Program-made: the position numbers and the translations under genes | Part shown: positions 12,161-31,867 of the stretch, piece by piece | How positions within the stretch are numbered: position 1 is the stretch's first letter | Layout: each line of letters starts with the position of its first letter | The notes under the pieces: model-generated | Told to the model about the DNA's origin: nothing | What the model saw: only the letters and a program-made list of their open reading frames with translations | Database searches by the model: none | IMG/VR virus record: IMGVR_UViG_3300042691_029898 | Coordinates: 1-31,886 of that record | Length of the DNA: 31,886 nt | Reading direction: 5' to 3' (one strand) | DNA from: a virus

Positions 12161-12622
12161 ATGGCAAATGGTATTTCTTATGGTATTGGGTTTCCCTTTT
12201 TTGATTCAATAGAAGGGAAATATTTATCTACCACAAAAACAACTAATGACGAAGTAAGAACTAATCTAACTCATCTTTTACTCACAAGAAAAGGAAGTAG
12301 ATATTTTCTACCCGATTTTGGGACAAGACTTTATGAGTATATCTTTGAACCTTTAGACGGTCCAACCTTCGCACAAATAGAATCAGAAATAAGAGAAAGT
12401 GTCGCATTATACCTACCAGGTATTTTAATTACAAATGTTGAAATAAAAGATGCAAGCACAATGTATAGTGACCCAGGTGCAACATACATAACACCAAATG
12501 GTTCAAGGGAATATAGAGTTCCTGGATTAGCAGAGAAAGAATATACCGCAAGAGTAAGAATTGATTACCGAATTACGGATTCAGCCTTTGGCTCAAGTGA
12601 TTTCTTAATACTTAATATTTAA
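12161..12622 (+). CDS. gp25-like baseplate wedge protein
   Basis: This 153-residue protein matches the GPW/gp25 family, the wedge component that joins the baseplate to the sheath in contractile tails. Diagnostic stretches are TTNDEVRTNLTHLLLTRKG (27-45) followed by SRYFLPDFGTRLYEYIFEPL (46-65), containing the conserved LLTxxGxR...PxFGxxLxxxxFEP pattern. VEIKDA then leads into the last beta strands, ending RVRIDYRI and LILNI. Length is typical of the family (T4 gp25 has about 130 residues). The gp6 gene starts 8 bases downstream, the pairing also found in most contractile tails. There is no lysozyme active site; the old gp25 lysozyme annotation should not be applied. Confidence 0.9.
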   Translation: MANGISYGIGFPFFDSIEGKYLSTTKTTNDEVRTNLTHLLLTRKGSRYFLPDFGTRLYEYIFEPLDGPTFAQIESEIRESVALYLPGILITNVEIKDASTMYSDPGATYITPNGSREYRVPGLAEKEYTARVRIDYRITDSAFGSSDFLILNI

Positions 12623-12630
12623 TATAAAAG

Positions 12631-14469
12631 ATGGCAGAGAAAAAAATATCATATACCGTCCGAGACTTCCAAGGAGTAAGAACTGAACTTATAAATTTTA
12701 CAAGACAGTATTATCCAGATTTAGTCCAAAACTTTAATGATGCGGGTATTTTTTCTGTCTTATTAGATATTAATGCCGCAGTAACTGACAACTTACAATT
12801 TCATATAGATAGAAGTATTCAAGAAACAGTATTACAGTATGCACAACAACGTTCATCTGTTTATAATATTGCAAGAACTTATGGACTTAAAATACCAGGA
12901 CAACGTCCATCAGTTGCATTGGTTGATTTCTCAATAAACGTTGATGCTTTTGGTGATAAAGAAGATTTAAGATATTGTGGAATATTAAGAAGGGGTGCTC
13001 AAGTCAATGGTGGAGGACAACCTTTCGAAACAGTATATGATATCGATTTTGCTTCAGCGGTAAATGCAGAAGGATTTCCAAACAGATTGAAAGTTCCAAA
13101 TTTTGACTCAACAGGGTCATTAATAGATTATACAATAACAAAAAGAGAAGTTGTTGTTAATGGAACAACAAAGGTGTTCAAAAGAGTTATAACAGCAAAT
13201 GATGTTCGTCCATTTTTTGAATTATTTTTACCTGAAAAAAATGTTTTGGGTGTTACAAGTGTTTTAATTAAAGAAGGAACACAATATACAACAATACCAC
13301 AACCACAAGAATTTCTTGGGTTGAGTAATCGATGGTATGAAGTAAAAGCTTTAATGGACGATAGAGTGTTTGTGGAAGACCCAACCAAAGTGTCTGACAA
13401 CCCTGGTATTAAAGTGGGTAAATACATATTAACTAACAGTAAATTCATTACTGAATACACACCAGAAGGTTTTTATAAGATGACGTTTGGTGGTGGAAAC
13501 ACATCGGCAGAAGATCAGTTAAGAGAATTTACAAGAGACGGTGTTGGATTTGACTTATCAAAATATTCTAATAATCTTGCATTGGGAAGCACACTTCGTC
13601 CGAACACAACAATGTTTGTTCAGTATAGAGTTGGTGGTGGACAATCAAGTAATTTAGGTATTGGTGTTATAAATCAAATTGGTGTTGTTTCATTTGCGGT
13701 AAATGGACCTTCAGATAGTAAAAATAGAAACGTAATAGATTCATTGAGATGTAACAACCTAACTGCCGCAATTGGTGGAGCAAACCCACCAACTTTAGAA
13801 GAAGTAAGACAAATGGTTTCATTTAATTTTTCAGCACAAAATAGAGCTGTTACAATTAATGATTACGAATCTATAATAAGAACTATGCCATCACAATTTG
13901 GAGCTCCCGCAAAAGTGACAATTACAGAAGAAAATAACAAAATAAAAATTAAGTTATTATCATACGACAATGACGGGAAACTTACCGAACTAACATCAAA
14001 TACCCTGAAACAAAACATAGCAAACTACTTATCCAACTACAGAATGATAAATGATTACATATCGGTAGAAAGTGCAAATGTAATCGACTTAGCAGTCACA
14101 CTTGACATAGTTTTAGATGCAAGTCAAAATCAAGGTGCATTAGTAACACAAGTGATTGATATAGTAACAAGGTATTTTTCTCCTACCAACAGACAAATGG
14201 GGGAAAACGTATATGTTTCAGATATTAGAAGACAAATACAAGCATTAGACGGTGTAATAAGCATATCAGACATTCTATTTTTTAACAAAGTAGGAGGACA
14301 GTATTCTTCCTCACAAACGTCTCAAAGATACATCGATTCAGAGACAAAACAAATTGAATTAATTGCTGATACAATCTTTGCAGAACCCACCCAAACCTAT
14401 CAAGTAAGATTCCCAAACAAGGATATTAATGTAAGAGTTCTTAATTTTACGGGTGTCAATTTCTCTTGA
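12631..14469 (+). CDS. gp6-like baseplate wedge protein
   Basis: At 612 residues this is close to T4 gp6 (about 660), the wedge protein whose dimers form the iris around the hub. The N-terminal stretch, SYTVRDFQGVRTELINF followed by YYPDLVQNFNDAGIFSVLLD, is the family opening. Further on, LQFHIDRSIQETVLQYAQQ and ARTYGLKIPGQRPS match the Baseplate_J/gp6 pattern. The C-terminal half has SAQNRAVTINDYESIIRTMP (about 401-420), a very conserved gp6 segment, then TRYFSPTNRQMGENVYVSDI before the final strands. It should interact with gp25, encoded just upstream, and with the giant wedge protein downstream. The start has an A-rich leader (AATATAAAAG). No membrane or enzyme motifs are seen. Confidence 0.9.
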   Translation: MAEKKISYTVRDFQGVRTELINFTRQYYPDLVQNFNDAGIFSVLLDINAAVTDNLQFHIDRSIQETVLQYAQQRSSVYNIARTYGLKIPGQRPSVALVDFSINVDAFGDKEDLRYCGILRRGAQVNGGGQPFETVYDIDFASAVNAEGFPNRLKVPNFDSTGSLIDYTITKREVVVNGTTKVFKRVITANDVRPFFELFLPEKNVLGVTSVLIKEGTQYTTIPQPQEFLGLSNRWYEVKALMDDRVFVEDPTKVSDNPGIKVGKYILTNSKFITEYTPEGFYKMTFGGGNTSAEDQLREFTRDGVGFDLSKYSNNLALGSTLRPNTTMFVQYRVGGGQSSNLGIGVINQIGVVSFAVNGPSDSKNRNVIDSLRCNNLTAAIGGANPPTLEEVRQMVSFNFSAQNRAVTINDYESIIRTMPSQFGAPAKVTITEENNKIKIKLLSYDNDGKLTELTSNTLKQNIANYLSNYRMINDYISVESANVIDLAVTLDIVLDASQNQGALVTQVIDIVTRYFSPTNRQMGENVYVSDIRRQIQALDGVISISDILFFNKVGGQYSSSQTSQRYIDSETKQIELIADTIFAEPTQTYQVRFPNKDINVRVLNFTGVNFS

Positions 14470-14544: not shown

Positions 14545-17500
14545 ATGCCCAAATCATATAGAATCAGGACACAGGTTGGTGTTGATAAAGCCGTCAAAGT
14601 AAATTTAGAACAAGATTTTGAAAGTATCAACATACTCTCTCTTAAAATATTACAGAGTGACATCTACAATAGACAATGTTCTGATTATGGTGTTGTAGTG
14701 GGAAGAGTATTTGTGAATGGTGGGTTCGGATTACCAAACGCAAGAGTATCCGTTTTTATACCTTTAAGTGAAGAAGACTCATTGAATCCTGTCATAAGTG
14801 AGTTGTATCCTTACACGACAATTTCAGATGTTAGTGAGGATGGGTATAGGTATAATCTTTTACCAAAAGAACCATCATATGAAGGACACGCTGCCACGGG
14901 GACATTCCCAACAAAGGACGAAGTATTATTAGATCCAAGTTACATTGAAGTATATGACAAGTATTACAAATTCACAACAAGAACAAATGACAGTGGTGAT
15001 TATATGATATTTGGAGTTCCACTTGGAACACAAACATTTTTTTTAGATGTTGATTTATCTGATATTGGTTGTTTTTCTTTAGCACCACAAGATTTAATAC
15101 AAGCAGGTGTTGCAACCGAATCACAAGTAGATGGTGCTGGGTTCAAAACGTCTAATAGTTTAAGTGAATTACCACAAATAAAAACATTGAATAAAATTGT
15201 GGATATTGCACCATTATGGGGAGAACCTGAAATATGTCAGTTAGGTATTACAAGAGTAGATTTTGATTTGACATCTGAAGCAAATGTAAGGATTGAACCA
15301 AAGGCAATATTTATGGGTTCAATTGTTTCTACGACTGAAGACGATATGGTGAGAGCACGTTCTTGCAAACCAAAAAACAATACTGGAAATTTATGTGAGT
15401 TAGTTGCGGGACCTGGACAAATTTTATCAATTAGACAAACAATAAATACTGACAACGAGGGGTTTCCTATACTTGAACAACACAAACTAGAGGAAGATGG
15501 AAAATTAATTGATGGTGACGGTAGTTACTTGGTTAATCTTCCTATGAATTTGGACTATGTTTATACTAATGAATTCGGGGAACAAACCTTCTCGTCAGAC
15601 CCAACAGTTGGAATACCAACAAAAGGTAGATATAGATTCAAATTCAAATGGGAAAATGAAGGAGGATTACAAAACGAAGTCCAAAGAGCAAACTTTTTTG
15701 TCCCAAACATTAAAGAACATGGGTGGGAAACATCGGACTATGATGACGATCCATTAAAACAAGCACCCGTAACACAACCAACAATATCTTTTATAACCCA
15801 ACCTTTAATTCTAACAACATTTGCGAATATACCGTTTGCGGGCGACTTGATAAATCCAGTCCTTACAAACGTGGACAGCTTCCAAGTTTATATATCCCAA
15901 CAAGCGTTACCCACAAACTTCCAACCCTACTTAGGTGACGCTAACACGGCAATAACTGGTTTAACTGCAGGTAACATAGTTCAAATAGTCTTTACTCCGA
16001 CAGACCCAACATTGAACTCATCAATATTTTACACAGGAGCGAACGGGGCTCAAAATGAACTATTTCAAATAGTGGGACAACCTGTCGGTTCTACATACAC
16101 AACACCAAATAGTATTGGTTTAGTTTTCAGTGAAGTAATAAATACGAGTTCATACACCATTTTTATAAACGGAAATCAATATTTTGGTGATACTCAAGTT
16201 ATATCGTTAAACGCTGGTGATACAATAGAAGTTATACCAGTTTTCACAGATCCATTACAGCTTTCCACAATAATATATGACATATATGACGAGAATTACT
16301 TCAATCTATTGAAGTCATATTCATTCAGTTTAGATTGGGATGATTATGCTGACCCACAAGCGGCTATAGATTGTGAAGATAGTTTTTATGAATTTCATTA
16401 TAATAAAGTTTATACCACATCAATGTTTTTAGATAGGTATAAAAATGGTTTCGGTAGAGCAAGACATTTAGGAATAAAGGAAATAGACAATAGGACTTGT
16501 AAATCAACAACAAATACATTTCCTGTAAATGATGTTATAAGAAATTTTGATTTTTTATTTTTTGTATTTAACTTATTAATTAATATATTGAGCATTCCAT
16601 TATTGGTTATTCTTTTTGTTGCTCATTTAATTGCTTTTTTATGGCCCGTATTGAAATTGGTTTTAATTGTATTGGGAATATTTCTGATTAGAAATGCAAT
16701 TATAGAGTGTTATCAAAACATACAATCATCGATACAAATATTAAATGAAGCCGCAGGTACAGTAAGTAGTGGGGTAGGTTTTGTTGTTAATGTTACTAAT
16801 ATACTTGAGATAATAAGATTAACAGCTGTGATAGTCTTCCAAGCGTTACAATGTGCCTTCCAAGTAGCCTTAGCAGGGTTATTTACAGCAGGTGCAGCTA
16901 TTGCGGCATTAAGAGTAAATGATTTTCCAAGAATAGGACTACCAATGTTAGCGTATCCCGACTGCACAACCTGTGATTGTGATTGTGGTGTTGCAGAGTT
17001 AGGTGATAATTTTGATTCAGATAGTATATTACAACAAGTTGAAAGTGATGCTGCTAATAGTGAGGGACAGTTAGGTGGTGCACCTGTTTCTGCAAGTACA
17101 TCCACATCCTTTTTAGCCCCAATAAATAATGTTAATGTTTATGATATTATCCACCCGAATGCGGAACAACAAACACCAGAATCAGATCCGACAGAAGAGA
17201 ATGAAGGTAACTATTGGTGTAATAGTTCAAATCAATATCCATCATTTACTTGGGCATTAGGTGAAGGTTGTATAAAATCAAGTGTTCTAATATCCGCAAC
17301 ATTAGGGTATAATCGTTTGATTTCAGGGAGTGAGTCATTAGACATTGAAGACAATTATGGAGGAATTCCCGATAAGACAGGACTTCACGCCCCACAACCA
17401 TTCTTGTTTGCTGCCAGTTGCACTAACGGTACTAATGGTAATGGTAGTAGAAGATTTTTAGCATATCCTCAAACTGAAACATTTTCACAAAAACTTAATG

Positions 17501-20463
17501 AGTTTAATTATAGAGAAAAATATTTTGAAGGTGTAAATAGAGTGGGGGTAACTTTTAATTCACCACAAAACACAGGGGTTCATTTCGATCAACCATTAAT
17601 TATAATGGCAAAACCTGGAACTTTACAACAGTTAGGTATTGGTGAAGTTTTTTCTTTCCAAGATCCGAAACTATCAGATTGTAATCAAAACTTGACTGGT
17701 GTAACTTTTTATAACTCAATAACTGCGAACACTACAAATCAATTTGGTAATAATGCTGTTACAGGAACATCTTTTGCGACAACAAACATAACTGTCAATT
17801 ATGCAAACACAACAAATAAAAATACTAACTTGTCAGTTCAATACATTATTAACAATACGGGAAATACAGAAAACTTCTTACGTAATGTAATTGACATCGA
17901 ATACTTTCAAGTAATCACAGGTTTTACATATACAGAATTTGTAAATAACCCTCAATACACAACAAGTTTTTCTCAAAGATTCCCTAACAAATATTTGAAC
18001 CACTCAACAGTATTCATATACAAAAACGAGTGTGAAGCACTTACAAATAGTAATGCGGACATAGAGTTCTATCAAATACCGAATTCAATAACAACAATTT
18101 CGGGACATGAATCATATGAGATTTTAATATTGGCAAGAGGTGTTGATCCACACTCAGGAAAACACACAAATAAGTATGATTTATCAAGAATTTTTGGACA
18201 ATCATCAAATAATTTGGTTGTTGTTGAGGGACAATATTATTTGAATATACCAATACAAGGTTATACAAATGGAGATAAACCAAAAAGTCATAACTTTTCA
18301 AATAACACTACAGCACCAAACTTATATTTTCCCGCATATAATTTTACAATAAGTCCTAGTTATAATGTTGGGAGTGTAACATATAATCAATTTACACCAT
18401 TTACATCAAACTTACCTTATTATTATTTGTGTCCTGATGATACTACCGTTCCGAATATAGGAAACTATACACCAGGTTCAGGCTTCCCAACCATATCATC
18501 CCTTGGAACAACTGGTACATATGTTATGAATAGTGCAAATCCTTTGAGAAATAGATTTTTACCATTTACATCGCCATACGACACCCTACTACCTAATAAC
18601 TCTACAGACAATTATTATTTTGCAGGAGGTTCATTCACCGCATCACCCTTTAACCCGAACACAAGTAGTTTTGGGTTTTATAATGGATTTACTTTTAGTG
18701 ACAATGATTTCAGTAATTTTGATGAAATATATTGGCCCGTAGCAAGCGGACCGAGCCCATTGATAACTCCGTATGCTGTTTATTCACCAGCATATTATAG
18801 ATACAATTTATCACAAATACAATTCCCTAACCCAACATTGAACCCAACTCAATATTTGGTTATGAGAAGTGATAGAATACCAACTTCTACTAATGTAGAA
18901 AATGGGTTGGGAACAACTGGTTTTGGACTACATCAGAATAATAACTTTGCATATTACAGAGGTGGTGTATCATCAGTCCCTACCATTGGTTTTGCACCTG
19001 ACATTAACCAAGGACAAACAGTATTTGATGAAAGTGAATTTGTTCAAAATCTAACAAGCACGCTTAATTGTGATAACATGGTAGCTTTAGAGTGTTACAC
19101 AGGTAGTGGAACAAACATTGGTGTAGATAACAATTGTGTTATACCACCTAATAGAGTTAAAAGAGGTTGTTATTGTTTATTAAATTATAGAGAAAATGGT
19201 GGTATAATTGATAAATTATATCTTGTGGAATATGGGGCAGACGCAAGATTGTTCTTGGAATGGAAGGCAAGATTTACAATGACATTCGCAGCCTGTAGAG
19301 GTGTATTCGCACAAGTGTTTCAGAATAATTGGATTAATGGTGTTTTGTATATGTTTTCTTTTGGTAAAAATAATTTATATGAACTTGACGCACCTGATGA
19401 ACCAATTTATGAATATTGTAAAGATATTGTAGTTTATAATAAAATTACAAATGGATTTTACTATAGAAGTTCTCCATGGGACGGAACTGATTTTATTGGT
19501 GTAGAATCTCCACCAAAAAATTCTTCACTGATAAACAATTATCCTAAATATGGGTATAACGAAAAAAGAATACAATTCCCAACAACTGTAATGGATTTAG
19601 GTCCGAGAGACAAGTTCATAAATCAAATTTGTAATGATTCTGAATTTACTGGATATATTGCAGATCAGATACGTTCTACATCCTACAAAGATAATTCAGA
19701 TATAATACAAATGGGTTTTATTTCTAGATTATTAAACCAAAGGGTAATACAAAGACTTTTACCCGCATTTGACACTGGTGACGGAAGTACGGAAGGTAAA
19801 GGTATAATACAATTCTTTGATAGTACTAGGGAGGGAGAACGAATAGATGGTGATTTTGCACAAGCACTATCCATTAATTCTGAATGGAGAGTTACACCAT
19901 ATATTGAAGAAAACTACCCAAATAATTTCTTATATATTGGTAATGATGCAACACCCGATCAGAACCCTGTATTTGGTATTTTCTTTTCTTCATCAACAGA
20001 AGAGCTTCAGTATAGAAGAAGGATGACACCAGGTTCTGATACATATACAAACAATGGCTGCACAGTTATTGATTTTTATGGACACTCAACGGATCAGATT
20101 GTTCCTCATTATAAATGGCAAATAGCAAGTCCTGCGGCTTCTATTTTCGGAACTGAAAATAACAATTGGGTAACAACGTCCAATCAAAATGCCACAGGAA
20201 CAGGTTTCTATACACAGTATTATCAAAATCTGAATTTCAATAGAGTCAATGAATATTACTTGACATCTACAACCGATTACGGTTTTATAACTAATTTTGA
20301 TTTGAATGGAGATCCATTAATTTCTAATGCTAACACTATCAACGGTATTCCTGATGACAAACCAATTGTTGTTGGCGCACCATTTTTCTTTTATTTTGGT
20401 TTGAATAACGGAAAAACCGCGGTAGATAAGTTCATAAAACTATATGTGAGAACAGAAGAGTAA
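14545..20463 (+). CDS. Giant baseplate wedge-like protein with internal hydrophobic segments
   Basis: At 1972 residues this is the largest product here and about twice the size of T4 gp7, whose map position (after gp6) it occupies; the gp7 equivalence rests on order, not sequence. The N-terminal region (about 48-185) holds a carboxypeptidase-regulatory-like beta domain: DYGVVVGRVFVNGGFGLPNA, then VSVFIPL, closing with TNDSGDYMIFGVPLG. Two similar Ig-like units follow at about 445-496 and 535-578. Residues 670-716 and 757-789 are strongly hydrophobic, enough for about three membrane helices. A cysteine cluster (C807, C810, C812, C814) comes just after. The rest is Asn/Tyr/Thr-rich beta structure. 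Membrane-like helices are unexpected in a baseplate protein. The gene ends in a TAATG overlap with the next. Confidence 0.72.
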   Translation: MPKSYRIRTQVGVDKAVKVNLEQDFESINILSLKILQSDIYNRQCSDYGVVVGRVFVNGGFGLPNARVSVFIPLSEEDSLNPVISELYPYTTISDVSEDGYRYNLLPKEPSYEGHAATGTFPTKDEVLLDPSYIEVYDKYYKFTTRTNDSGDYMIFGVPLGTQTFFLDVDLSDIGCFSLAPQDLIQAGVATESQVDGAGFKTSNSLSELPQIKTLNKIVDIAPLWGEPEICQLGITRVDFDLTSEANVRIEPKAIFMGSIVSTTEDDMVRARSCKPKNNTGNLCELVAGPGQILSIRQTINTDNEGFPILEQHKLEEDGKLIDGDGSYLVNLPMNLDYVYTNEFGEQTFSSDPTVGIPTKGRYRFKFKWENEGGLQNEVQRANFFVPNIKEHGWETSDYDDDPLKQAPVTQPTISFITQPLILTTFANIPFAGDLINPVLTNVDSFQVYISQQALPTNFQPYLGDANTAITGLTAGNIVQIVFTPTDPTLNSSIFYTGANGAQNELFQIVGQPVGSTYTTPNSIGLVFSEVINTSSYTIFINGNQYFGDTQVISLNAGDTIEVIPVFTDPLQLSTIIYDIYDENYFNLLKSYSFSLDWDDYADPQAAIDCEDSFYEFHYNKVYTTSMFLDRYKNGFGRARHLGIKEIDNRTCKSTTNTFPVNDVIRNFDFLFFVFNLLINILSIPLLVILFVAHLIAFLWPVLKLVLIVLGIFLIRNAIIECYQNIQSSIQILNEAAGTVSSGVGFVVNVTNILEIIRLTAVIVFQALQCAFQVALAGLFTAGAAIAALRVNDFPRIGLPMLAYPDCTTCDCDCGVAELGDNFDSDSILQQVESDAANSEGQLGGAPVSASTSTSFLAPINNVNVYDIIHPNAEQQTPESDPTEENEGNYWCNSSNQYPSFTWALGEGCIKSSVLISATLGYNRLISGSESLDIEDNYGGIPDKTGLHAPQPFLFAASCTNGTNGNGSRRFLAYPQTETFSQKLNEFNYREKYFEGVNRVGVTFNSPQNTGVHFDQPLIIMAKPGTLQQLGIGEVFSFQDPKLSDCNQNLTGVTFYNSITANTTNQFGNNAVTGTSFATTNITVNYANTTNKNTNLSVQYIINNTGNTENFLRNVIDIEYFQVITGFTYTEFVNNPQYTTSFSQRFPNKYLNHSTVFIYKNECEALTNSNADIEFYQIPNSITTISGHESYEILILARGVDPHSGKHTNKYDLSRIFGQSSNNLVVVEGQYYLNIPIQGYTNGDKPKSHNFSNNTTAPNLYFPAYNFTISPSYNVGSVTYNQFTPFTSNLPYYYLCPDDTTVPNIGNYTPGSGFPTISSLGTTGTYVMNSANPLRNRFLPFTSPYDTLLPNNSTDNYYFAGGSFTASPFNPNTSSFGFYNGFTFSDNDFSNFDEIYWPVASGPSPLITPYAVYSPAYYRYNLSQIQFPNPTLNPTQYLVMRSDRIPTSTNVENGLGTTGFGLHQNNNFAYYRGGVSSVPTIGFAPDINQGQTVFDESEFVQNLTSTLNCDNMVALECYTGSGTNIGVDNNCVIPPNRVKRGCYCLLNYRENGGIIDKLYLVEYGADARLFLEWKARFTMTFAACRGVFAQVFQNNWINGVLYMFSFGKNNLYELDAPDEPIYEYCKDIVVYNKITNGFYYRSSPWDGTDFIGVESPPKNSSLINNYPKYGYNEKRIQFPTTVMDLGPRDKFINQICNDSEFTGYIADQIRSTSYKDNSDIIQMGFISRLLNQRVIQRLLPAFDTGDGSTEGKGIIQFFDSTREGERIDGDFAQALSINSEWRVTPYIEENYPNNFLYIGNDATPDQNPVFGIFFSSSTEELQYRRRMTPGSDTYTNNGCTVIDFYGHSTDQIVPHYKWQIASPAASIFGTENNNWVTTSNQNATGTGFYTQYYQNLNFNRVNEYYLTSTTDYGFITNFDLNGDPLISNANTINGIPDDKPIVVGAPFFFYFGLNNGKTAVDKFIKLYVRTEE
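16552..16911 (+). other. Hydrophobic, membrane-helix-like region inside the giant baseplate protein
   Basis: Residues 670-716 (FLFFVFNLLINILSIPLLV, then FVAHLIAFLWPVLKLVLIVL) are almost free of charge apart from H694 and K704, room for two helices. Residues 757-789 (IRLTAVIVFQALQCAFQVAL, then AGLFTAGAAIAAL) make a third. A polar linker of about 40 residues separates them. The frame is intact on both sides, so this is not a frameshift artefact. Confidence 0.75.
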
Positions 20464-22220
20464 TGGGTATTGATGATACAAATAAAATTATTTTAGGTAG
20501 CCAAAGGTTCCAAGGAGCAACTGACATAGATTTGTCAGAAAAGATTGTATTACAACAAACATCCAAAGAACAAGTAGAGTATGATAGATATATTGATGTG
20601 AATTTACTTACAGTGTTTGACAAAGAAAGACAAAATTCGAACACATTCAGACCCGTATCAAAGTATTCTGTGGTTTTCAAAAATGCATACCAAGGAGTAT
20701 CCTCGTATGAACCGTATTATAATTATCTTTTTTATACGAATATTATACAAAATACTCAAAATACTTTGTGTTACCCAAATGTTCAACAGGCATGGTCTGG
20801 TTTTCCACAATATACGGAGTTTGATTTTATCAGAACCGATAATGATAAACCAGGTTATACCATAGGACAAAGTAATCATCAACCATTTGTGTCTAAAAGT
20901 GCTACGACATATAATTGGAATCACTACATTAGTTATCCGTTTGATAATGATTATAACAAAGTTTTATACATGAATGACCCAGAATTTGTTATAACATGGT
21001 ATTGGGTTTCGGGTGATGGTATTCCATATTACATAAAAGAAATAAATAATAATATAATATCATTCAGATGTCCGATGAAACACGGTTTATCTGTTGGTGA
21101 ATACGTTAATCTTGGTATTACTTACAATAACATAAATAGTTTTATGGTAACATCTTTGGGTGATAATGGTTCAGGTAGTGATGAATACATTTTTAACATA
21201 GATAATGTAGGTTTTGTCGGTGGGACTTTTAGTCAAGGAGTTACGGGTAATCTCAAAAGAGTAATTAATCCTGACTATTCAGGTGAGACAACATCAGAAT
21301 ATTATGTAAGAAAACATAAGATTATTACAAACCCACAAGATGCGGTTGTTGTGAATAGTGGTTTTGAACAAAACATATTTAATTTGGTGACACAGTATGA
21401 GAAAGTATATTCAGGTGGGACACCATTACAATCATTATCACCATCTTCTTGCCCAAGAACCTCAATATTAGAAGGGAGTCAAAGTTACAATATTTCTTTT
21501 AGTCGTGATATTGTGTTAAATAATTTAATAGATAATCAAAAAAGACCCGTAACTGAAATATATTTCACAACTGTTTGGAAAGGATATTACGGATGGACTA
21601 ATAGACTAAAAGAAGGACATTTTTTCAACGCTTATTTAGATGGTAACACACCAAATGCTTGGTGGGATTCAAATAATACTTTGTCAGACAGCACAATACC
21701 ATTTGGAACATACTTCCCAAATAATATAAATGGAATTTATCCATGTTATTATACAGAAAATTTGTTAAGTGGTGATACTATTGACGGTGATTATTGTGAG
21801 TGGAATGATTATGAACAAAAAGAAAGAGTAATATCATCAAAACTACATAAATTCACGTTTAACCAAAATTATTTTACAACATTTGATGAAACACCAAATA
21901 CCAATAAATTTGGTTATTATTACTTTCCACTCAACCCAATGAAACTAAAAGTGTATTCTGAATATGTGGAGGAAGGAGAGGCTGAATTAGTTGAAGATAT
22001 ACCACCTTACGCTTTTTTCTCTAACTTGGCAAATGGGTTTAGATGGAGAGATATTTATCCCTATGGTTACGTTGATAGTGATGGTTTGGGTGTGGACTAC
22101 CCATTTACCAACGGAAAACACTACCCCTTCAAGAATACGATATTTAGAATATTTTCAGAAGGAATAGGAACACAAAACATAACAACAATACAAGACCCGA
22201 CAATAGATGGATGTGAGTAA
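20463..22220 (+). CDS. Baseplate or tail structural protein, unknown family
   Basis: I do not recognise this 585-residue protein by sequence. It is rich in Tyr, Asn, Phe and Gly, and looks wholly beta-structured with no signal peptide or membrane segment. Recognisable stretches are GIPYYIKEINNNIISFRCPM followed by KHGLSVGEYVNL (a beta-hairpin-rich domain near 195-225), TEIYFTTVWKGYYGWTNRLK near 365-384, and a C-terminal YPFTNGKHYPFKNTIFRIFS. It starts inside the stop of the giant wedge gene (TAATG), so it is co-translated with it. Position after gp6 and the wedge protein corresponds to T4 gp8/gp9, and size is nearer gp10, but I see no motif to choose. Wedge or fibre-connector function is inferred from context. 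Confidence 0.72.
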   Translation: MGIDDTNKIILGSQRFQGATDIDLSEKIVLQQTSKEQVEYDRYIDVNLLTVFDKERQNSNTFRPVSKYSVVFKNAYQGVSSYEPYYNYLFYTNIIQNTQNTLCYPNVQQAWSGFPQYTEFDFIRTDNDKPGYTIGQSNHQPFVSKSATTYNWNHYISYPFDNDYNKVLYMNDPEFVITWYWVSGDGIPYYIKEINNNIISFRCPMKHGLSVGEYVNLGITYNNINSFMVTSLGDNGSGSDEYIFNIDNVGFVGGTFSQGVTGNLKRVINPDYSGETTSEYYVRKHKIITNPQDAVVVNSGFEQNIFNLVTQYEKVYSGGTPLQSLSPSSCPRTSILEGSQSYNISFSRDIVLNNLIDNQKRPVTEIYFTTVWKGYYGWTNRLKEGHFFNAYLDGNTPNAWWDSNNTLSDSTIPFGTYFPNNINGIYPCYYTENLLSGDTIDGDYCEWNDYEQKERVISSKLHKFTFNQNYFTTFDETPNTNKFGYYYFPLNPMKLKVYSEYVEEGEAELVEDIPPYAFFSNLANGFRWRDIYPYGYVDSDGLGVDYPFTNGKHYPFKNTIFRIFSEGIGTQNITTIQDPTIDGCE

Positions 22221-24240: not shown

Positions 24241-25149
24241 GTGGCGACAGGTAATTACGGAACAATAAGGCCCGCAGACGTAAGTCCTGATGATGTAGAA
24301 ATTATATTAAATTACACACCATCAAGAGACGATACAGATAATTTTCTTCTAACAAAATTGGATGCAAGTAGTGTCCTTAAACCGTATTTCCATAATAATA
24401 ATACAGGTGGAAACGCGAATGTAGAAATACTTGGAGGATTATATAATTTGAAATTACCTGCGGACGTATTCAACAGATTAGGGATTTATACATTATATAT
24501 ACGTCCCGCAGAAATTAGAACTAAAATCACAGATTGTGGTGTTTTATCTGCATTACCAAACGTAAAAGGTTTAGTGATTGATATAAACAACGTCCCATCT
24601 GACTTTAGAAATAAATTTGTAAATCAAGGATTAGTTGGTTTCAGAGTGGAATATCTAAATGATAATGGAACAAAAATACCAAACTTTTTTAGAATTATTA
24701 CTTCTTCATTTTATTGCGAACCAGTCTATCAAAACTTAACAAACACCTCACAAAAACAAATTAGATATAGATATGTAGAGGGAACATCAAATTTAATTTT
24801 TTGCACGTTGTCCCCTTCGGCATCACCAACTAACAAACCTAACGCAACACCCTTCATCGGACAACCAAACCAAAATATTATTATAACAAATACATTCTTC
24901 AATCCGATTACAACAGAAATAGAAATTGTCGATCAAGACATTTCAACACTTGCAATTGCACTTTATGGTAATCAAACAAAATCTATGGATGATGGTATAT
25001 ACACAATCTATGACAATCAAAACAATATCTATAAACAATACAATCTATATGAAATAAGAGATCAGTTTAATCAATTATTATACGAAGTTAGAGAAGACAG
25101 AGGAACAAATATAGATTTCAGTAAATCATTCACTAACGTTACATCATAA
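24241..25149 (+). CDS. Tail structural protein, unknown family (GTG start)
   Basis: The 302-residue protein begins at GTG 24241 (M-ATGNYGTIRPADVSPDD). No nearby in-frame ATG gives the same N-terminus, and many gene starts here share an M-A opening. I do not recognise a family. Stretches such as VLKPYFHNNNTGGNANVEIL, FNRLGIYTLYIRPAEIRTKI and GLVGFRVEYLND suggest alternating beta strands. The last 60 residues (IYTIYDNQNNIYKQYNLYEI then RDQFNQLLYEVRED) look like a strand-turn repeat that may pair with partners. There are no membrane segments. It ends with a TAATG overlap into the 999-residue gene, so the two are likely made together in the distal baseplate or fibre-base complex. Confidence 0.72.
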   Translation: MATGNYGTIRPADVSPDDVEIILNYTPSRDDTDNFLLTKLDASSVLKPYFHNNNTGGNANVEILGGLYNLKLPADVFNRLGIYTLYIRPAEIRTKITDCGVLSALPNVKGLVIDINNVPSDFRNKFVNQGLVGFRVEYLNDNGTKIPNFFRIITSSFYCEPVYQNLTNTSQKQIRYRYVEGTSNLIFCTLSPSASPTNKPNATPFIGQPNQNIIITNTFFNPITTEIEIVDQDISTLAIALYGNQTKSMDDGIYTIYDNQNNIYKQYNLYEIRDQFNQLLYEVREDRGTNIDFSKSFTNVTS

Positions 25150-28148
25150 TGGCGATTACAAAATTTACTTGTCCACCCCAAGCATCAGCTCAAGGTTCAT
25201 TTTCTGATAATTTAGTTGGCTTTCAATTAGTTGACGGGGGAGGCTTTACACAAGGAAATTTTGATTTTACTTCTGTTATTTCTGAAAAACAAGATAGAAA
25301 TTTTGAAATAGGAAGTTTTTCAGAACCAATTTCATTAGAAAGTATGAACATTTCGGATGTCGAACAATCCAAAATGATTATAGCTAACAACTTTCAAGTA
25401 TACCCAAATTACGATTTATCCCAAATAACAAATTTTACGTTATATGGTTCATTAGTATTAAGAGTATCATCTGCAATTAGGAAAATTGTGAATTATTTTC
25501 CTGCGGCATTGGATGTAAGAACATTGAGATCCGATTATAGTACAGGTAATACATTTGTTAATATCTCCTATGATTCTGTAGAAAACGAAACTACTTTAGA
25601 AATACCATTAGAAGCAATAAGAAACCCTTTTGCAATTGATTATAGTACTAACGCAAACAGAAATACTGCTGTTTATGAATTTGCAACATCAGAGTTAAGA
25701 AACATGACTGCTAATTTTGGTAAATATGCTTTATTTTTGGGAAATAATCAATTTACAATCAATGATATTGTCCCTGTAGATTCAGGGAGCACAACCTTCA
25801 AACTCTACATAGAAGGAGAACCATTTCCTAATGTAACATTCTCTAACTTTAACGTATTAATCCGCCCAACGGATTTCTATGTTAATAAAGTATTTAATGA
25901 AAATTTTGATACAGTTGAAAATTTCTTACTTAATCGAGAAATCACACCTATATACACAGCATACTTCAAAGTCCCAAGGGAGAATGAGGATGGAACATAT
26001 ACAATAACATACGAGACGGCAAAATTTCCAGTAGAAGGTGTTTGGAACTTGGACATTGTTTCATCAACATTTCAAGACTACATAACTACACTAAATGACT
26101 TCGCAATAAATTTAGACGAATTCACCACAAACTTAATATCGCGTTTCTATACCACAAACGCACTTAAAGAATTTGATACTCCTGATAGGAAGTATGAAAA
26201 AATATTACAGATTTATGGTAGGAGTTTTGATCAAACAAAAAGTTTTATAGGTGCTTTAGCAAATATAAATTCTGTTAATTATAATGTTAAAAATGACATA
26301 CCATCACAACTCCTTAAAAATTTAGCTCAGACATTAGGATGGGCAACAAACATTTCGCCAATTACAGAAACTTCCTTTTTAGGTTCAGTATTCTCGTCAA
26401 GTAAAAGTCAATTTAGTGGTGTTCCTAAAGGACAAACACCAGATGAACTAAATTATCAATACTATAGAAATTTGATAATGAATTCTGCATACCTATTCAA
26501 GTCAAAAGGAACAAGAAAATCAATAGAGGTATTATTAAGGTTTATAGGTGCTCCAGATTTTTTAGTTGATTTTAATGAATATGTGTATTTAGCAGATCAA
26601 AGAATCAATCTTGATGAGTTTAATGAAAAATACGCATTAATTTCAGGAGGAACTTACATTGAAACAACGGCAGTTTTAGACCCAACTGACGTGTATTCTA
26701 TCATGGGCGTTCAATATACTGGAGTCACCGCAACAACAGTCACAAGAGATATTAGTGTTACAATAAATGATTACCCTATTGATAGTTTTGGTTGTCCTAG
26801 TACTCCCGTAGATAGTGAAAGTTACTTTTTCCAAATAGGAGGTGGATGGTTCGAATCTACACCACAACATAGAATGCCAGAGCAAGTGGATTTGACAACA
26901 AGTGTTTTTACAGGTAGTAACCCCAATTATCAAACTAAACTAAAACCCTTTAACTACGGAGAAGAATATTTAGACAGGTATAGGAATTTCCCATTTATGA
27001 GATTGGGATTCAATTTAAGAAGAACACCTGACAACAAAAAAAGTTGGTATGACAATGAAAGTATTTTAAGACAAAGTTTTGACGGGAACTTCAATGCTTA
27101 CTACCCCACATCGGAGGATTGTTTGGTATTGAATGTCAAAAACGTAGATATTATGTTAAACCCAAGTTTAGGTTTGGCATACGATGTATGGAGTATGTCA
27201 AGAAGGTTTAACTACCCAATACCAAACGAAGGACTTAATTATGTTGAACCAACATATTGTAATCCAAATCCGAATACGCCTTACCCCAAGAGAGGTGGTA
27301 TTGACTGGACTGAAATAATACCAAAACCGAAAGAAAAAACGTTTTTTGAATTTCTACAAACATTTTGGAAAAATACCATCAATGTTAGAAATAGACAATT
27401 TATTACAGATGGAAAAACAGGTGGCTACCCAACTTTACAGTCTATATATTGGAAATATTTAGAGTCAAGGGAATTAGCAGGATTACCTAATGACAATTTT
27501 ACATACCAACCACTTATTGATTATGTAAATGGTATGGGAACATATTGGATGAGGCTTATTGAACAGATGGTTCCTGCAACAACAATATGGAATACGGGAG
27601 TTAGGTTTGAAAATTCAATATTCCATAGACAAAAATTTGTGTGGAGAAGACAGTTTGGTTGTCAAATTGCACCAATACCATGCAATCCGTGCGAACTTAC
27701 AGCACCAATATTTGAATATGATTGTCCTATACAAAAAGTAGAATGTCCATTATATCCGTGGCTTGCAGATCCTAATGTTGTGTCTTTTGGAACTTTGTTA
27801 GGTAATGCCGTTAAAGACTATCTTACACCTAGTGGTTTGAGTTTGAGTCAAGATTGTATTGCAAACTCTATTGTTGCTGAATGGTATGTGGATATAAGAT
27901 ATAATGGTTCTCCATTAGTGGTGGAATTATTTGCAATCACATACGGCTACCAATCACAACCATTAAACCAACAATGGGTGAATGGTTTAGGAAATGCACT
28001 ATCACAACTCACAGAAGAAGGATACGAATATTATATAGATGAATTAAATGAAATAGTAACGGTTTACAACGTGAATTGTGTTCCTATTACTAATAATACA
28101 TTCGAAATAAATGTTGGAATAAACTTTACAATACTTTGTAATCAGTAA
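25149..28148 (+). CDS. Large gpI-like tail/baseplate protein
   Basis: Of 999 residues, the stretch of about 345-475 resembles phage P2 gpI-type tail proteins, which join wedge to tail fibre. DIPSQLLKNLAQTLGWATN is followed by YYRNLIMNSAYLFKSKGTRK and SIEVLLRFIGAP, the typical 'region before KGT, then helix and GAP' arrangement. The N-terminal 340 residues are beta-rich. After 480, further structural domains lead to YVNGMGTYWMRLIEQMVPA and TTIWNTGVRFENSIFHRQKF, then a cysteine-rich piece (GCQIAPIPCNPCE, about 836-848). The last 120 residues form a separate small domain. P2 gpI has fewer than 200 residues, so this would be a greatly extended version. It is coupled by TAATG at both ends. The gpI link is moderate; a structural role is near certain from context. 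Confidence 0.72.
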   Translation: MAITKFTCPPQASAQGSFSDNLVGFQLVDGGGFTQGNFDFTSVISEKQDRNFEIGSFSEPISLESMNISDVEQSKMIIANNFQVYPNYDLSQITNFTLYGSLVLRVSSAIRKIVNYFPAALDVRTLRSDYSTGNTFVNISYDSVENETTLEIPLEAIRNPFAIDYSTNANRNTAVYEFATSELRNMTANFGKYALFLGNNQFTINDIVPVDSGSTTFKLYIEGEPFPNVTFSNFNVLIRPTDFYVNKVFNENFDTVENFLLNREITPIYTAYFKVPRENEDGTYTITYETAKFPVEGVWNLDIVSSTFQDYITTLNDFAINLDEFTTNLISRFYTTNALKEFDTPDRKYEKILQIYGRSFDQTKSFIGALANINSVNYNVKNDIPSQLLKNLAQTLGWATNISPITETSFLGSVFSSSKSQFSGVPKGQTPDELNYQYYRNLIMNSAYLFKSKGTRKSIEVLLRFIGAPDFLVDFNEYVYLADQRINLDEFNEKYALISGGTYIETTAVLDPTDVYSIMGVQYTGVTATTVTRDISVTINDYPIDSFGCPSTPVDSESYFFQIGGGWFESTPQHRMPEQVDLTTSVFTGSNPNYQTKLKPFNYGEEYLDRYRNFPFMRLGFNLRRTPDNKKSWYDNESILRQSFDGNFNAYYPTSEDCLVLNVKNVDIMLNPSLGLAYDVWSMSRRFNYPIPNEGLNYVEPTYCNPNPNTPYPKRGGIDWTEIIPKPKEKTFFEFLQTFWKNTINVRNRQFITDGKTGGYPTLQSIYWKYLESRELAGLPNDNFTYQPLIDYVNGMGTYWMRLIEQMVPATTIWNTGVRFENSIFHRQKFVWRRQFGCQIAPIPCNPCELTAPIFEYDCPIQKVECPLYPWLADPNVVSFGTLLGNAVKDYLTPSGLSLSQDCIANSIVAEWYVDIRYNGSPLVVELFAITYGYQSQPLNQQWVNGLGNALSQLTEEGYEYYIDELNEIVTVYNVNCVPITNNTFEINVGINFTILCNQ

Positions 28149-30364
28149 TGGGTTATATAGATTTATTAACATTTACCTTTACGGGTGATTGTAGTGGTGG
28201 AAATAATGGTGCAATTTACTTTGAGGTTACAGGTAATTCCCCAAATTGGGTTGTAACAGAAGGACCACCATACACAGGATTATTACCAGGTGCTTTACTT
28301 ACACCTCTATCTAATTCATATTCTGCAACAGGACTTTCTGCGGGAACATACTCGTTTATTATAACCGAAACATCAGTTCCCCCATTAAACCCAACAGAAG
28401 AGATTAGAGTATTTCAAATATCGTCAGGAACGTCCGTTTCTGTCCTATCATCAGGAACAACTTGTAATATTGATAATGGTTCTATAACAGCCTCAACTCT
28501 TGTAAATTTAGGAGTTTCTACATTCGAATTATACGATATTTCTAACAATTATGTAACAAGTGGTGAAACATCTTTTGGTGAAGACTTTGTAATATTCAAT
28601 AACCTTTCGGCAAACACATATTATGTTGTTGCAAACGATGGTGGCGGTTGTACTGGTATGAGTGAGTCCTGTATCGTATATCCAAGTTCAATCTTTACCT
28701 ATGGTTATTATGTTGTTAATGACGGAAGTTGTGTTCAACAGGGGGGTGGTGGAAAGATATTCCTAACAGGTTTAACAATACCAACAAGTGCCTATACGAT
28801 TGATTGGATTACAGATGTTAATGGACAAACAGGGACAACTATAACAGGTTTGACAGGGGGACTCTATGAAGTTCAAGTAACAGATACAAATGGTTGCACA
28901 GTAACAGAATTTATACCTATAGACACTGTTTTACCGTTGGGTATTGGTGCGGTATTTCTAACTCAACCATCTTGTTTTAGTACCGATGGGGAAATCTCGG
29001 TAGTTGTTACAGGAGGAACTGCACCATTTTACTATACCTGTTCAAACGGAGATACGGCAGTTTCCTTTGACTCCACATATACATTTACAGGATTACCATC
29101 TGCGGTATATACTCTAACAGTCACAGACGGAGGACTTTGCACAACAAATACTCAAGTAACACTTGTAACACCTGGTTCTTTTGGAAACGTTAGTATTATA
29201 CCAGCAAACTCTAATTGTAGTTCAAATAATGGTGTTATAACAATATTGATTGATGATGGAATTGTACCAGGTAGTTACACATACACTTTATCTGGTGATA
29301 CAGGAGAACCTTCTGTAACACTCCAAGGTAGTCAAATACAGACATTTAACGATTTACAAACGGGTAATTATAATATTTTCATTGATAATGGAACGGGTTG
29401 TGTTTTTACAGGTAATACAACGATAGTTAATACAGATAAATTCACAATAACAGGAACACCAATATCAACAGTATGTGGATTGAACAATGGTATATTAAAT
29501 GTAAATGTATCAACAGGTGCAACTTTTCCTGTTACATATAATTTATTCGGACCTACAAGTAATCCACAAAATTTATCACAACCGACAGGAACTTTTATAA
29601 ATTTACAAGCAGGAACATATACACTCACCGTAATAGACTCAACACAATGTCAGCAATCAATACCTGTTTTCATAGGCTCATCAAACCCTGTTTATTTCGA
29701 CTTAATTGGGTATGACCCAGTGTTTGGAAACGACGGACAAATAAATGTTGTTATTACAAGTGGAGAACCAACATTCACATTTAATTGGAGTGCAAATGTA
29801 GGGGCTCAAACAGGAACACTGATTACAGGTTTAACATCGGGAGACTACACATTACAGTTGATAGACTTCAACGGTTGTTCTTTATCGAAAACAATAAAAT
29901 TAGGAGGAACTCAATTATTAGGTAATTACGTATTCACACCAATATGTGAACAAACATTTGAAAATACGGAAGAAATGGGCATCAGAAGTATCCAACAGAT
30001 GTTCAATGAAGGTTTTTATGATTTAACAACAGGAGACACAAACTGTATATTGAATGAGGCAACGTTTAAATTAGTTGTTGATGTGGATGGTGTAACATTA
30101 GAAAATGAATTTTATATATCTAATAGTTTGAATGATTTTCCTGATTTGATTCTTTGGTCGGAAACACTTCAGACAATGTTAGAAAGTTACACTGGTGTCG
30201 GAGAAGTAGTTATTGATTATGAAAATAATACAATAAAAATAACAAATGATTGTGAAGAGATATTCAAAAACTGTCAAACACAAACATATAATTTATTAGC
30301 AGATACAAGATTTATTGTGAATATGGTTATTTCCTATGATATATCCTGTGTCTCATGTACATAA
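28148..30364 (+). CDS. SprB-repeat adhesin-like tail protein
   Basis: The 738-residue protein is built from seven degenerate repeats of about 75-88 residues over residues 11-590, then a distinct C-terminal domain. Each repeat runs C-x(2-4)-N/D-G-x-I-x-V near its start, through G-x-x-x-F/Y, to a LxxGxYxxxVxDxxGC end. Examples are PSCFSTDGEISVVVTGGTAP and LPSAVYTLTVTDGGLC. This is the SprB repeat pattern of Bacteroidota surface adhesins. There is no signal peptide and no type IX secretion C-terminal domain, so it is not simply a captured host adhesin gene. In a phage tail operon it probably forms an Ig-like shaft or receptor-contact arm. The last 150 residues (MGIRSIQQMFNEGFYDLTTG and on) are an unrecognised alpha/beta domain that may mediate attachment. 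It is coupled by TAATG to the preceding gene. Confidence 0.82.
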   Translation: MGYIDLLTFTFTGDCSGGNNGAIYFEVTGNSPNWVVTEGPPYTGLLPGALLTPLSNSYSATGLSAGTYSFIITETSVPPLNPTEEIRVFQISSGTSVSVLSSGTTCNIDNGSITASTLVNLGVSTFELYDISNNYVTSGETSFGEDFVIFNNLSANTYYVVANDGGGCTGMSESCIVYPSSIFTYGYYVVNDGSCVQQGGGGKIFLTGLTIPTSAYTIDWITDVNGQTGTTITGLTGGLYEVQVTDTNGCTVTEFIPIDTVLPLGIGAVFLTQPSCFSTDGEISVVVTGGTAPFYYTCSNGDTAVSFDSTYTFTGLPSAVYTLTVTDGGLCTTNTQVTLVTPGSFGNVSIIPANSNCSSNNGVITILIDDGIVPGSYTYTLSGDTGEPSVTLQGSQIQTFNDLQTGNYNIFIDNGTGCVFTGNTTIVNTDKFTITGTPISTVCGLNNGILNVNVSTGATFPVTYNLFGPTSNPQNLSQPTGTFINLQAGTYTLTVIDSTQCQQSIPVFIGSSNPVYFDLIGYDPVFGNDGQINVVITSGEPTFTFNWSANVGAQTGTLITGLTSGDYTLQLIDFNGCSLSKTIKLGGTQLLGNYVFTPICEQTFENTEEMGIRSIQQMFNEGFYDLTTGDTNCILNEATFKLVVDVDGVTLENEFYISNSLNDFPDLILWSETLQTMLESYTGVGEVVIDYENNTIKITNDCEEIFKNCQTQTYNLLADTRFIVNMVISYDISCVSCT
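28178..29915 (+). repeat. Seven SprB-type protein repeats
   Basis: Approximate repeat starts are 28178, 28430, 28691, 28930, 29177, 29438 and 29684. They are clear at protein level (paired cysteines, internal NG or DG, terminal GxYxxxVxD) but weak at DNA level, meaning old duplication or assembly from diverged modules rather than recent copying. Repeat 7 lacks the first cysteine (FGNDGQINVVITSGE). Confidence 0.75.
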
Positions 30365-30697: not shown

Positions 30698-31867
30698 ATG
30701 GCGTTTCTTACAGATAGAACTTTAGCTACAGGTGTTACCGCACAAGACTTAATACATATTGTAAAACCTTATGATGCAACACAAAATCCTGCTGGATCAT
30801 CATATAAGGCAACAATACAACAAACCTTAGAAGCAATAACTGGTGCGACACAAGTTATGATACTGAGTTCAGGGATAGGTTCGGTAGAGAGATGTGGTAA
30901 TGGTAACGACGCTAATGGAGATTGCTCAACCGTTAGTGGTGGACAATCAAATACCACATTGGGACAACATTCGGTAATTGCAGGAGGAAGATGTAATACA
31001 ACTACATTATCAAATTCAAATGTTTCAGGTGGTTTTCGTAATACTGCTTCAAATTATTATAGTGTTATTGGTGGAGGATGTAGAAACACTACATTAGGTG
31101 CATCTAATACCATTGGTGGAGGTCAATTCAACACTACCTGCAGTACAAATAGTACAATTGGTGGGGGTTTATTTAATCAATCAAGATGTTCTTACTCAAC
31201 AATTGCAGGTGGTTGTCAGAATTATTCTATCGGTTGTTTTAGTGTAATAAGTGGGGGTGCAAATAATACAACGTCTGGAATTTATAGTAGTATTTTGGGT
31301 GGTATTTGTAATTGTAATACAGATTGTTACTCAACGATAGGTGGTGGTAATCTTAATACAACAAGAAATATATATAACTCTATAATTGGAGGTAGTGGAA
31401 ACACTGTCTCACACGATTTTTCATCAGCAGTTGGTTTTGCCATAAAGTCTGTATCTGCGTGTACATTTCACGTAAATTATCTTGCTTTGAACAACACACC
31501 AATCAATGATCAAACACTCACCGAATATTTGGTTAGAGATTCATCAACTGGTGTTGTAAAATACAAAACAACACAACCAACTTATATATCAACAACGGAT
31601 GTTACAGTTGCAAATTACACCGCAAATACATCATTTGCATATTATGGTGTTACATTCAGTGGTAATACAAATATTGAAATTCCATTACCAACAGGGATTG
31701 ATGGATTCAGTTTCAAAATAAAAGATGAAAGAGGAACCGCGTCTTCATATCCTATTACAGTTACAACACCTGTTGGTTTAATAGATGGGAGTGGTTCTGT
31801 TGTAATGAACATAAACTATATGTCACTTCTATTTGTGGCAAGAAATAATAATTGGTGGATAGTATGA
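30698..31867 (+). CDS. Tail fibre with YadA-like beta-roll repeats
   Basis: The 389-residue protein opens with a 77-residue attachment region (MAFLTDRTLATGVTAQDLIH and on). It then has eleven consecutive 15-residue repeats at 78-242 with consensus (T/V/S)I-x-GG-x-x-N-T-T-x-x-x-x-S, as in TIGGGQFNTTCSTNS. Such repeats build a left-handed trimeric beta-roll, known from YadA-type adhesin heads and many phage fibres. A transition follows (FHVNYLALNNTP, EYLVRDSSTGVVKYKT). The C-terminal 110 residues form a beta-rich tip ending ARNNNWWIV, a common ending for fibre tips, and likely the receptor-binding part. There are many cysteines in the roll (for example GGICNCNTDCYS), unusual for a fibre assembled in the cytoplasm. 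The stop TGA overlaps a following ATG. Confidence 0.82.
   Translation: MAFLTDRTLATGVTAQDLIHIVKPYDATQNPAGSSYKATIQQTLEAITGATQVMILSSGIGSVERCGNGNDANGDCSTVSGGQSNTTLGQHSVIAGGRCNTTTLSNSNVSGGFRNTASNYYSVIGGGCRNTTLGASNTIGGGQFNTTCSTNSTIGGGLFNQSRCSYSTIAGGCQNYSIGCFSVISGGANNTTSGIYSSILGGICNCNTDCYSTIGGGNLNTTRNIYNSIIGGSGNTVSHDFSSAVGFAIKSVSACTFHVNYLALNNTPINDQTLTEYLVRDSSTGVVKYKTTQPTYISTTDVTVANYTANTSFAYYGVTFSGNTNIEIPLPTGIDGFSFKIKDERGTASSYPITVTTPVGLIDGSGSVVMNINYMSLLFVARNNNWWIV
30929..31423 (+). repeat. Eleven tandem 45-base in-frame repeats
   Basis: Exactly eleven units of 15 codons occur without any length change (30929 + 11 x 45). Constant positions are GG at residues 4-5 and N at residue 8 of each unit; NTT or a variant and a final S or N are frequent. 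DNA identity between units is low outside the GGTGG and AATAC cores, so selection is on the protein roll. Confidence 0.88.

Follow-up and report, generated by a model that had tools for sequence, protein, structure and literature searches.

Why does a giant protein encoded among viral baseplate genes carry a stretch hydrophobic enough to form membrane helices? We addressed this question in a virus contig (IMG/VR record IMGVR_UViG_3300042691_029898), the whole 31,886-nucleotide stretch of which (the window) was analysed. The window encodes SSB, UvsX, an exonuclease, DnaB, ribonucleotide reductase, gp25 and gp6, and the protein in question, here called GIANT, lies in the tail/baseplate operon. 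The hydrophobic block proved to be a conserved module at a fixed place in a large family of proteins from uncultured giant phages, which suggests that a part of the injection machine inserts into or holds on to a membrane, although a buried soluble role is also possible.

Genomic context and architecture of GIANT

The genes that bear on this question are as follows.

12161–12622, + strand: gp25-like baseplate wedge gene
12631–14469, + strand: gp6-like baseplate wedge gene (Baseplate_J)
14545–20463, + strand: GIANT, 1972 aa, tail/baseplate operon, carrier of the hydrophobic block
20463–22220, + strand: G585, partner gene of GIANT, directly 3′ of it in nearly all contigs examined

The close relatives examined keep the gene order gp25-gp6-GIANT-G585-H270-I392-J302-K999-M738, and in nearly all contigs examined GIANT lies between gp6 and G585 and directly adjoins both. 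The gp6–GIANT and GIANT–G585 junctions of the window contain no ORF of at least 100 aa. The G585 family is as widespread as GIANT (190 matches among the loci searched, almost always directly after GIANT), and a PDB profile search with G585 gave chance-level matches only and no solved relative. Elsewhere in the window, the genes at 28148–30364, 25149–28148 and 30698–31867 encode cysteine-rich proteins (20, 12 and 12 cysteines, respectively).

The architecture of GIANT, drawn from its homologues and from AlphaFold2 (AF2) models, comprises the following parts.

14545–15714, + strand: N-terminal domain (residues 1–390), common to the whole superfamily, including members lacking the block
15772–16314, + strand: beta-sandwich region (410–590), AF2 pLDDT mostly 73–88
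16312–16548, + strand: pre-block motif YNKVYT...GIKEI...NTFPVND (590–668), pairwise identity 0.79, superfamily match
16549–16704, + strand: first hydrophobic run (669–720), within predicted helices 670–698 and 700–739
16705–16776, + strand: variable linker (721–744), pairwise identity 0.21, length dependent on clade
16777–16917, + strand: second hydrophobic run (745–791), predicted helix 750–790
16954–16986, + strand: cysteine motif YPDCTTCDCDC (804–814), with C807, C810 and C812 invariant
17071–18954, + strand: domain 843–1470, largely well predicted, pLDDT often 80–97
19069–19176, + strand: second conserved cysteine group (1509–1544), with C1509, C1517, C1531 and C1542 invariant
19315–19356, + strand: VFQNNWINGVLYMF motif (1591–1604)

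Outside the block, the predicted make-up of GIANT is beta-rich, and the N-terminus (MPKSYRIRTQ) contains no obvious signal sequence. The beta-sandwich region includes an insert at approximately residues 413–514 (window 15781–16086) that most homologues lack, as judged from column gaps. No Pfam or PHROGs family was found for GIANT, and its relatives gave only sub-threshold matches to CarboxypepD_reg, a weak carboxypeptidase-regulatory/transthyretin-like signal in the N-terminal domain. A tblastn search of an annotated phage collection with GIANT and three relatives gave no match, and Foldseek searches of PDB and BFVD with domain 843–1470 found no convincing fold match; this domain is possibly an undescribed fold, to judge from the models. 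The best Foldseek match of model A, a Bacteroides beta-galactosidase (E 8e-4), was rejected, as its TM-scores were 0.08–0.11 and the model is of low confidence.

Conservation of the hydrophobic block and its cysteine motif

The sequence-only reading had placed about three membrane-helix-like segments and a cysteine cluster at 16552–16986, which corresponds exactly to residues 670–814 of the ORF at 14545–20463. Hydropathy, apparent insertion free energies (dG-app) and AF2 support two to three such segments. Kyte-Doolittle means over 19 residues (KD19) exceeded 1.6 only in windows starting at residues 664–706 and 746–771, which cover 664–724 and 746–789, with a peak of 2.78, the highest mean elsewhere in GIANT being 1.29. 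Values of dG-app, calculated by position with approximate Hessa-type parameters, were −2.5 kcal/mol for residues 677–699, −1.4 for 700–720 and +0.5 for 770–791; with the same approximate parameters, no other protein of the window fell below +1.3 kcal/mol. The block also includes a stretch of 34 uncharged residues. AF2, run with 59 sequences, predicted helices at 670–698, 700–739 and 750–790 (pLDDT mostly 66–81, with dips at the turns), flanked on both sides by regions of pLDDT below 50 (610–668 and 795–825). By these measures (KD19 up to 2.78, dG-app of −2.5 and −1.4, predicted helices of 29–41 residues), the block has the predicted properties of a membrane span. The AlphaFold prediction that had been proposed as a check, carried out on the monomer, yielded no confident soluble core or packing for the block helices.

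Comparison of homologues, also proposed earlier, showed how general the block is. Viral contigs with a close relative of GIANT number at least 593, and scans with distant members found further relatives, including some on contigs of up to 412 kb. Every scan covered the best 80 relatives of its query, and the sampling is biased accordingly. The N-terminal domain is common to all members studied. The block was present in 39 of 39 close-family representatives. Of the 115 superfamily members from uncultured phage contigs that were both complete and non-redundant, 113 have it, downstream of the N-terminal domain. GIANT itself has both of the elements that define the superfamily (N-terminal domain 1–390 and block), and block carriers range from about 1150 to 3000 aa. 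Block length falls by clade at about 106, 121 or 133 residues, and the number of helices varies from 1 to 3 across the family. In all 113 carriers the block is the most hydrophobic point of its protein (mean KD19 maximum of 2.48, compared with 1.24 elsewhere), and its dG-app is below 0 in 91 of them, again with the approximate parameters. A chance hydrophobic stretch was therefore rejected, given this family-wide conservation. Residue shuffling gave a mean shuffled maximum of 1.76 versus the observed 2.48, and 56 of the 113 members beat all 50 shuffles; since shuffling is the weaker test, the case rests on positional conservation rather than on the score of any single sequence.

The pattern of conservation within the block differs from that of its surroundings. 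Among close-family members, pairwise identity was 0.72 in the N-terminal domain and 0.79 in the pre-block motif, compared with 0.53 in the first hydrophobic run and 0.33 in the second. Despite this drift, to which the invariant positions H694, W700 and K704 are exceptions, hydrophobic columns of the block, whose own identity is down to 0.37–0.50, stayed hydrophobic in 92–93% of cells, whereas in the soluble domain of GIANT (850–1480), at similar identity, 79% of hydrophobic columns were kept hydrophobic. Because hydrophobicity is kept while identity falls, selection appears to act on hydrophobicity and not on specific packing, a pattern that favours lipid-facing or loosely packed surfaces. The flanks are asymmetric, with a net charge of +2.0 in the 30 residues before the block and −3.3, together with 3.7 cysteines, in the 60 residues after it, which is compatible with a membrane-spanning segment.

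The cysteines behind the block (C807, C810, C812 and C814) are all present where the sequence-only reading had placed them, and the cluster is conserved and linked to the block. It may bind metal, as that reading proposed. C807, C810 and C812, which form a CxxCxC motif, are invariant in 59 homologues and C814 is found in 49 of the 59. The two cysteines within the block, C722 and C770, show no such conservation. At least two cysteines occur within 60 residues after the block in 97 of the 113 carriers, and 17 cysteines of GIANT are invariant in 39 representatives, with which the 59-sequence set agrees. C814 and C1544 are both present in 49 of 59 homologues and both absent in the other 10, which suggests that they pair or share a site. 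However, on a tree with further relatives the C814/C1544 state changes only once, so the linkage is suggestive only. Such a link would tie the post-block region to the C-terminal conserved region, via a disulfide or a shared metal.

Relationship to gp7 and relatives lacking the block

GIANT had been taken for a gp7-type wedge protein, an identity that we did not recover. An hhalign comparison of GIANT with a six-member T4 gp7 profile gave a probability of 0.1%, PDB profile searches of both halves of GIANT returned no gp7 chain and only chance-level matches, and gp7 was not among the Foldseek matches of the two AF2 models, although these models, with mean pLDDT of only 59 and 63, are too weak for fold searches to settle the relation to gp7. 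A position directly downstream of gp6 holds in the window and in nearly all relatives but not on contig G009, where the gene next to gp6 on the downstream side is a G585 homologue and the GIANT homologue (L166), truncated by the end of the contig, is displaced to a site about 14 kb downstream of gp6. Thus, the protein is not bound to the gp7 position.

The accompanying premise, that wedge proteins are soluble and a hydrophobic block in one is unexpected, was too strong. T4 gp7 is indeed solved in several PDB entries as part of the baseplate, but it has a conserved hydrophobic segment of its own at residues 879–900 (KD 2.07, dG-app about −0.2 with the approximate parameters), and a predicted C-terminal integral membrane domain is recorded in its GenBank entry. 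The T4 gp7 gene (L324, 8061–11159) encodes the strictly conserved hydrophobic stretch RFVHP[VI]GFGF..[IV]TL[LI]T. This precedent is the main argument for a possible, if doubtful, explanation in which the block is a buried hydrophobic bundle, a permanent soluble oligomerisation core formed between GIANT copies or with G585 or gp6 that never meets a membrane. Contractile baseplates have helical core bundles of gp6/gp7-like proteins (PMC8894135), and GIANT adjoins gp6. However, the block is larger and more hydrophobic than the gp7 segment, as the dG-app values of −2.5 and −1.4 and the 34 uncharged residues attest; its sequence drifts with hydrophobicity kept, unlike the other conserved hydrophobic positions of GIANT; the AF2 monomer shows no packed core; and the block is absent in lineages that retain baseplate genes.

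Three relatives represent such block-less members (L145, L166 and L147). In L145 (747 aa, with a G585 homologue as the next gene) and in L166, a polar linker occupies the site of the block, and L147 (728 aa) has the N-terminal domain in common with GIANT and no hydrophobic block. The VFQNNWINGVLYMF motif is recognisable in many superfamily members, L145 and L166 among them. The L166 contig, G009, retains gp25, gp6, G585, J302 and K999; its gene arrangement is seen at loci L330 (12790–15195) and L331. A block that is universal and essential for the baseplate was therefore rejected, and its absence from L145 and L166, with baseplate genes kept on the L166 contig, indicates a removable module. 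The sequence-only reading had held that homologues in which the block is absent or polar, with baseplate function kept, would refute it, and this is partly the case: both L145 and L166 are polar at the site, and for L166 gp25 and gp6 are on the same contig. The contig of L147, which is in a Bacteroidota MAG with two gp6-like loci, carries sheath and gpV-like genes, and a viral scan with L147 as query gave no matches.

The displacement of the gene on G009 also bears on whether GIANT belongs to the particle. We consider it very improbable that GIANT acts as a phage-encoded membrane protein in the infected cell, absent from the virion and merely located in the tail operon. Its gene is movable and not recognisably gp7, and the acidic, cysteine-rich stretch after the block could be extracytoplasmic, but this explanation sits poorly with the place of GIANT, which gp6 and G585 flank immediately in nearly all contigs examined, with the predicted beta-rich make-up outside the block and with the lack of an obvious signal peptide.

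The relatives also bear on the hosts of these phages. In one of them, G002 (290 kb), the TerL, portal and major capsid genes share a single region with a bS21 gene on the reverse strand, an arrangement like that of the bS21-encoding freshwater Bacteroidetes myophages described in PMC9723584. The bS21 gene of G002 (L149, G002:9466–9615, minus strand) lies between the portal and major capsid genes, and the contig has 22 tRNA genes (L162). Shine-Dalgarno sites were found in 3% of upstream regions, compared with 59% for T4 and 0% for a Flavobacterium phage. From the G002 arrangement and this lack of Shine-Dalgarno sites we infer that the hosts are probably Bacteroidota. Neither a giant protein nor a hydrophobic block is mentioned in the passages of PMC9723584 concerned, and "transmembrane" does not appear anywhere in the text of that paper.

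A possible membrane-inserting module and its parallels

The conservation pattern, the predicted helices, the operon context and the precedents below favour a reading to which we give slightly less than an even chance: the block is a membrane-inserting module that the particle keeps packed until infection releases it. The block (about residues 669–791) would be a helical module of two to three hydrophobic helices. If GIANT is a virion component, the block would be packed against other baseplate-region parts in the finished particle, and host engagement and tail contraction would release it to insert into a bacterial membrane, where it might anchor the tail tip or line the DNA entry path. The C807/C810/C812 motif, with C814 linked to C1544, could attach the module at its C-terminal end to the remainder of GIANT by a disulfide or a metal. 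This reading is weakened by T4 gp7, a solved baseplate protein with a conserved TM-like segment, by the polar replacement in L145 and L166, by the lack of a chaperone-like gene between gp6 and GIANT to keep the block from the inner membrane during synthesis, and by the ambiguous helix count of 1 to 3 across the family.

A different membrane role, which we regard as quite unlikely, is that, while virions are being assembled, the block crosses the host inner membrane and baseplates are built or held there. The charge asymmetry, positive before the block and negative after it, fits co-translational insertion, but the MPKSYRIRTQ start is without an obvious signal sequence, and phage particles must exit the cell, so an integral anchor would need release. 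A parallel is offered by the thylakoid-anchored contractile injection system (tCIS), whose baseplate is held by a TM helix in the fibre-like Cis13 and by an extension of Cis12; deletion of the Cis13 TM helix frees many particles (PMC8894136).

Insertion at infection would touch on a wider problem. Other phages are thought to build a membrane anchor or channel from tape-measure or ejection proteins, and to our knowledge DNA passage through the inner membrane after sheath contraction is not settled for most contractile-tailed phages. A family-wide membrane-like module among baseplate genes, together with natural block-less controls, makes this question directly testable, and in a phage group that is abundant in aquatic and gut samples and has no match among the phage records searched. 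A giant protein without a Pfam or PHROGs match thereby also gains a recognisable architecture. In its broadest form, which we think somewhat unlikely, the proposal would be that a widespread, undescribed jumbo-myophage superfamily has its own device for membrane penetration in a giant baseplate-associated protein that is no relative of gp7 and whose cysteine-clasped helical module inserts on contraction and forms an anchor or channel.

Several known systems resemble the proposed membrane-inserting module in part. T4 gp7 is likewise a large protein encoded directly after gp6 with one conserved TM-like segment, but it has only one hydrophobic run, which is weaker and lies close to the C-terminus, and the GIANT gene can sit away from gp6. 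T7 gp14 and gp16 are virion proteins, as GIANT would be, with predicted TM regions; those of gp16 are folded as soluble, globular parts in the virion and refold on ejection, and gp16 purifies as a soluble monomer (PMC8954989). These are, however, capsid-internal ejection proteins of a podophage, and their genes are not among baseplate genes. The prePAAR effectors of the T6SS, with their Eag chaperones (PMC7773334), differ in having an N-terminal TM region on a spike-borne toxin and a dedicated chaperone, whereas GIANT has no chaperone-like neighbour, but they too carry a hydrophobic TM region on a contractile machine, shielded until delivery. Finally, in the tCIS (PMC8894136) parts of a contractile machine, a baseplate extension and a fibre-like protein, likewise touch or cross a membrane, but the TM helix of Cis13 is C-terminal and belongs to a fibre-like trimer from a cellular injection system, whereas the GIANT module is internal and phage-encoded.
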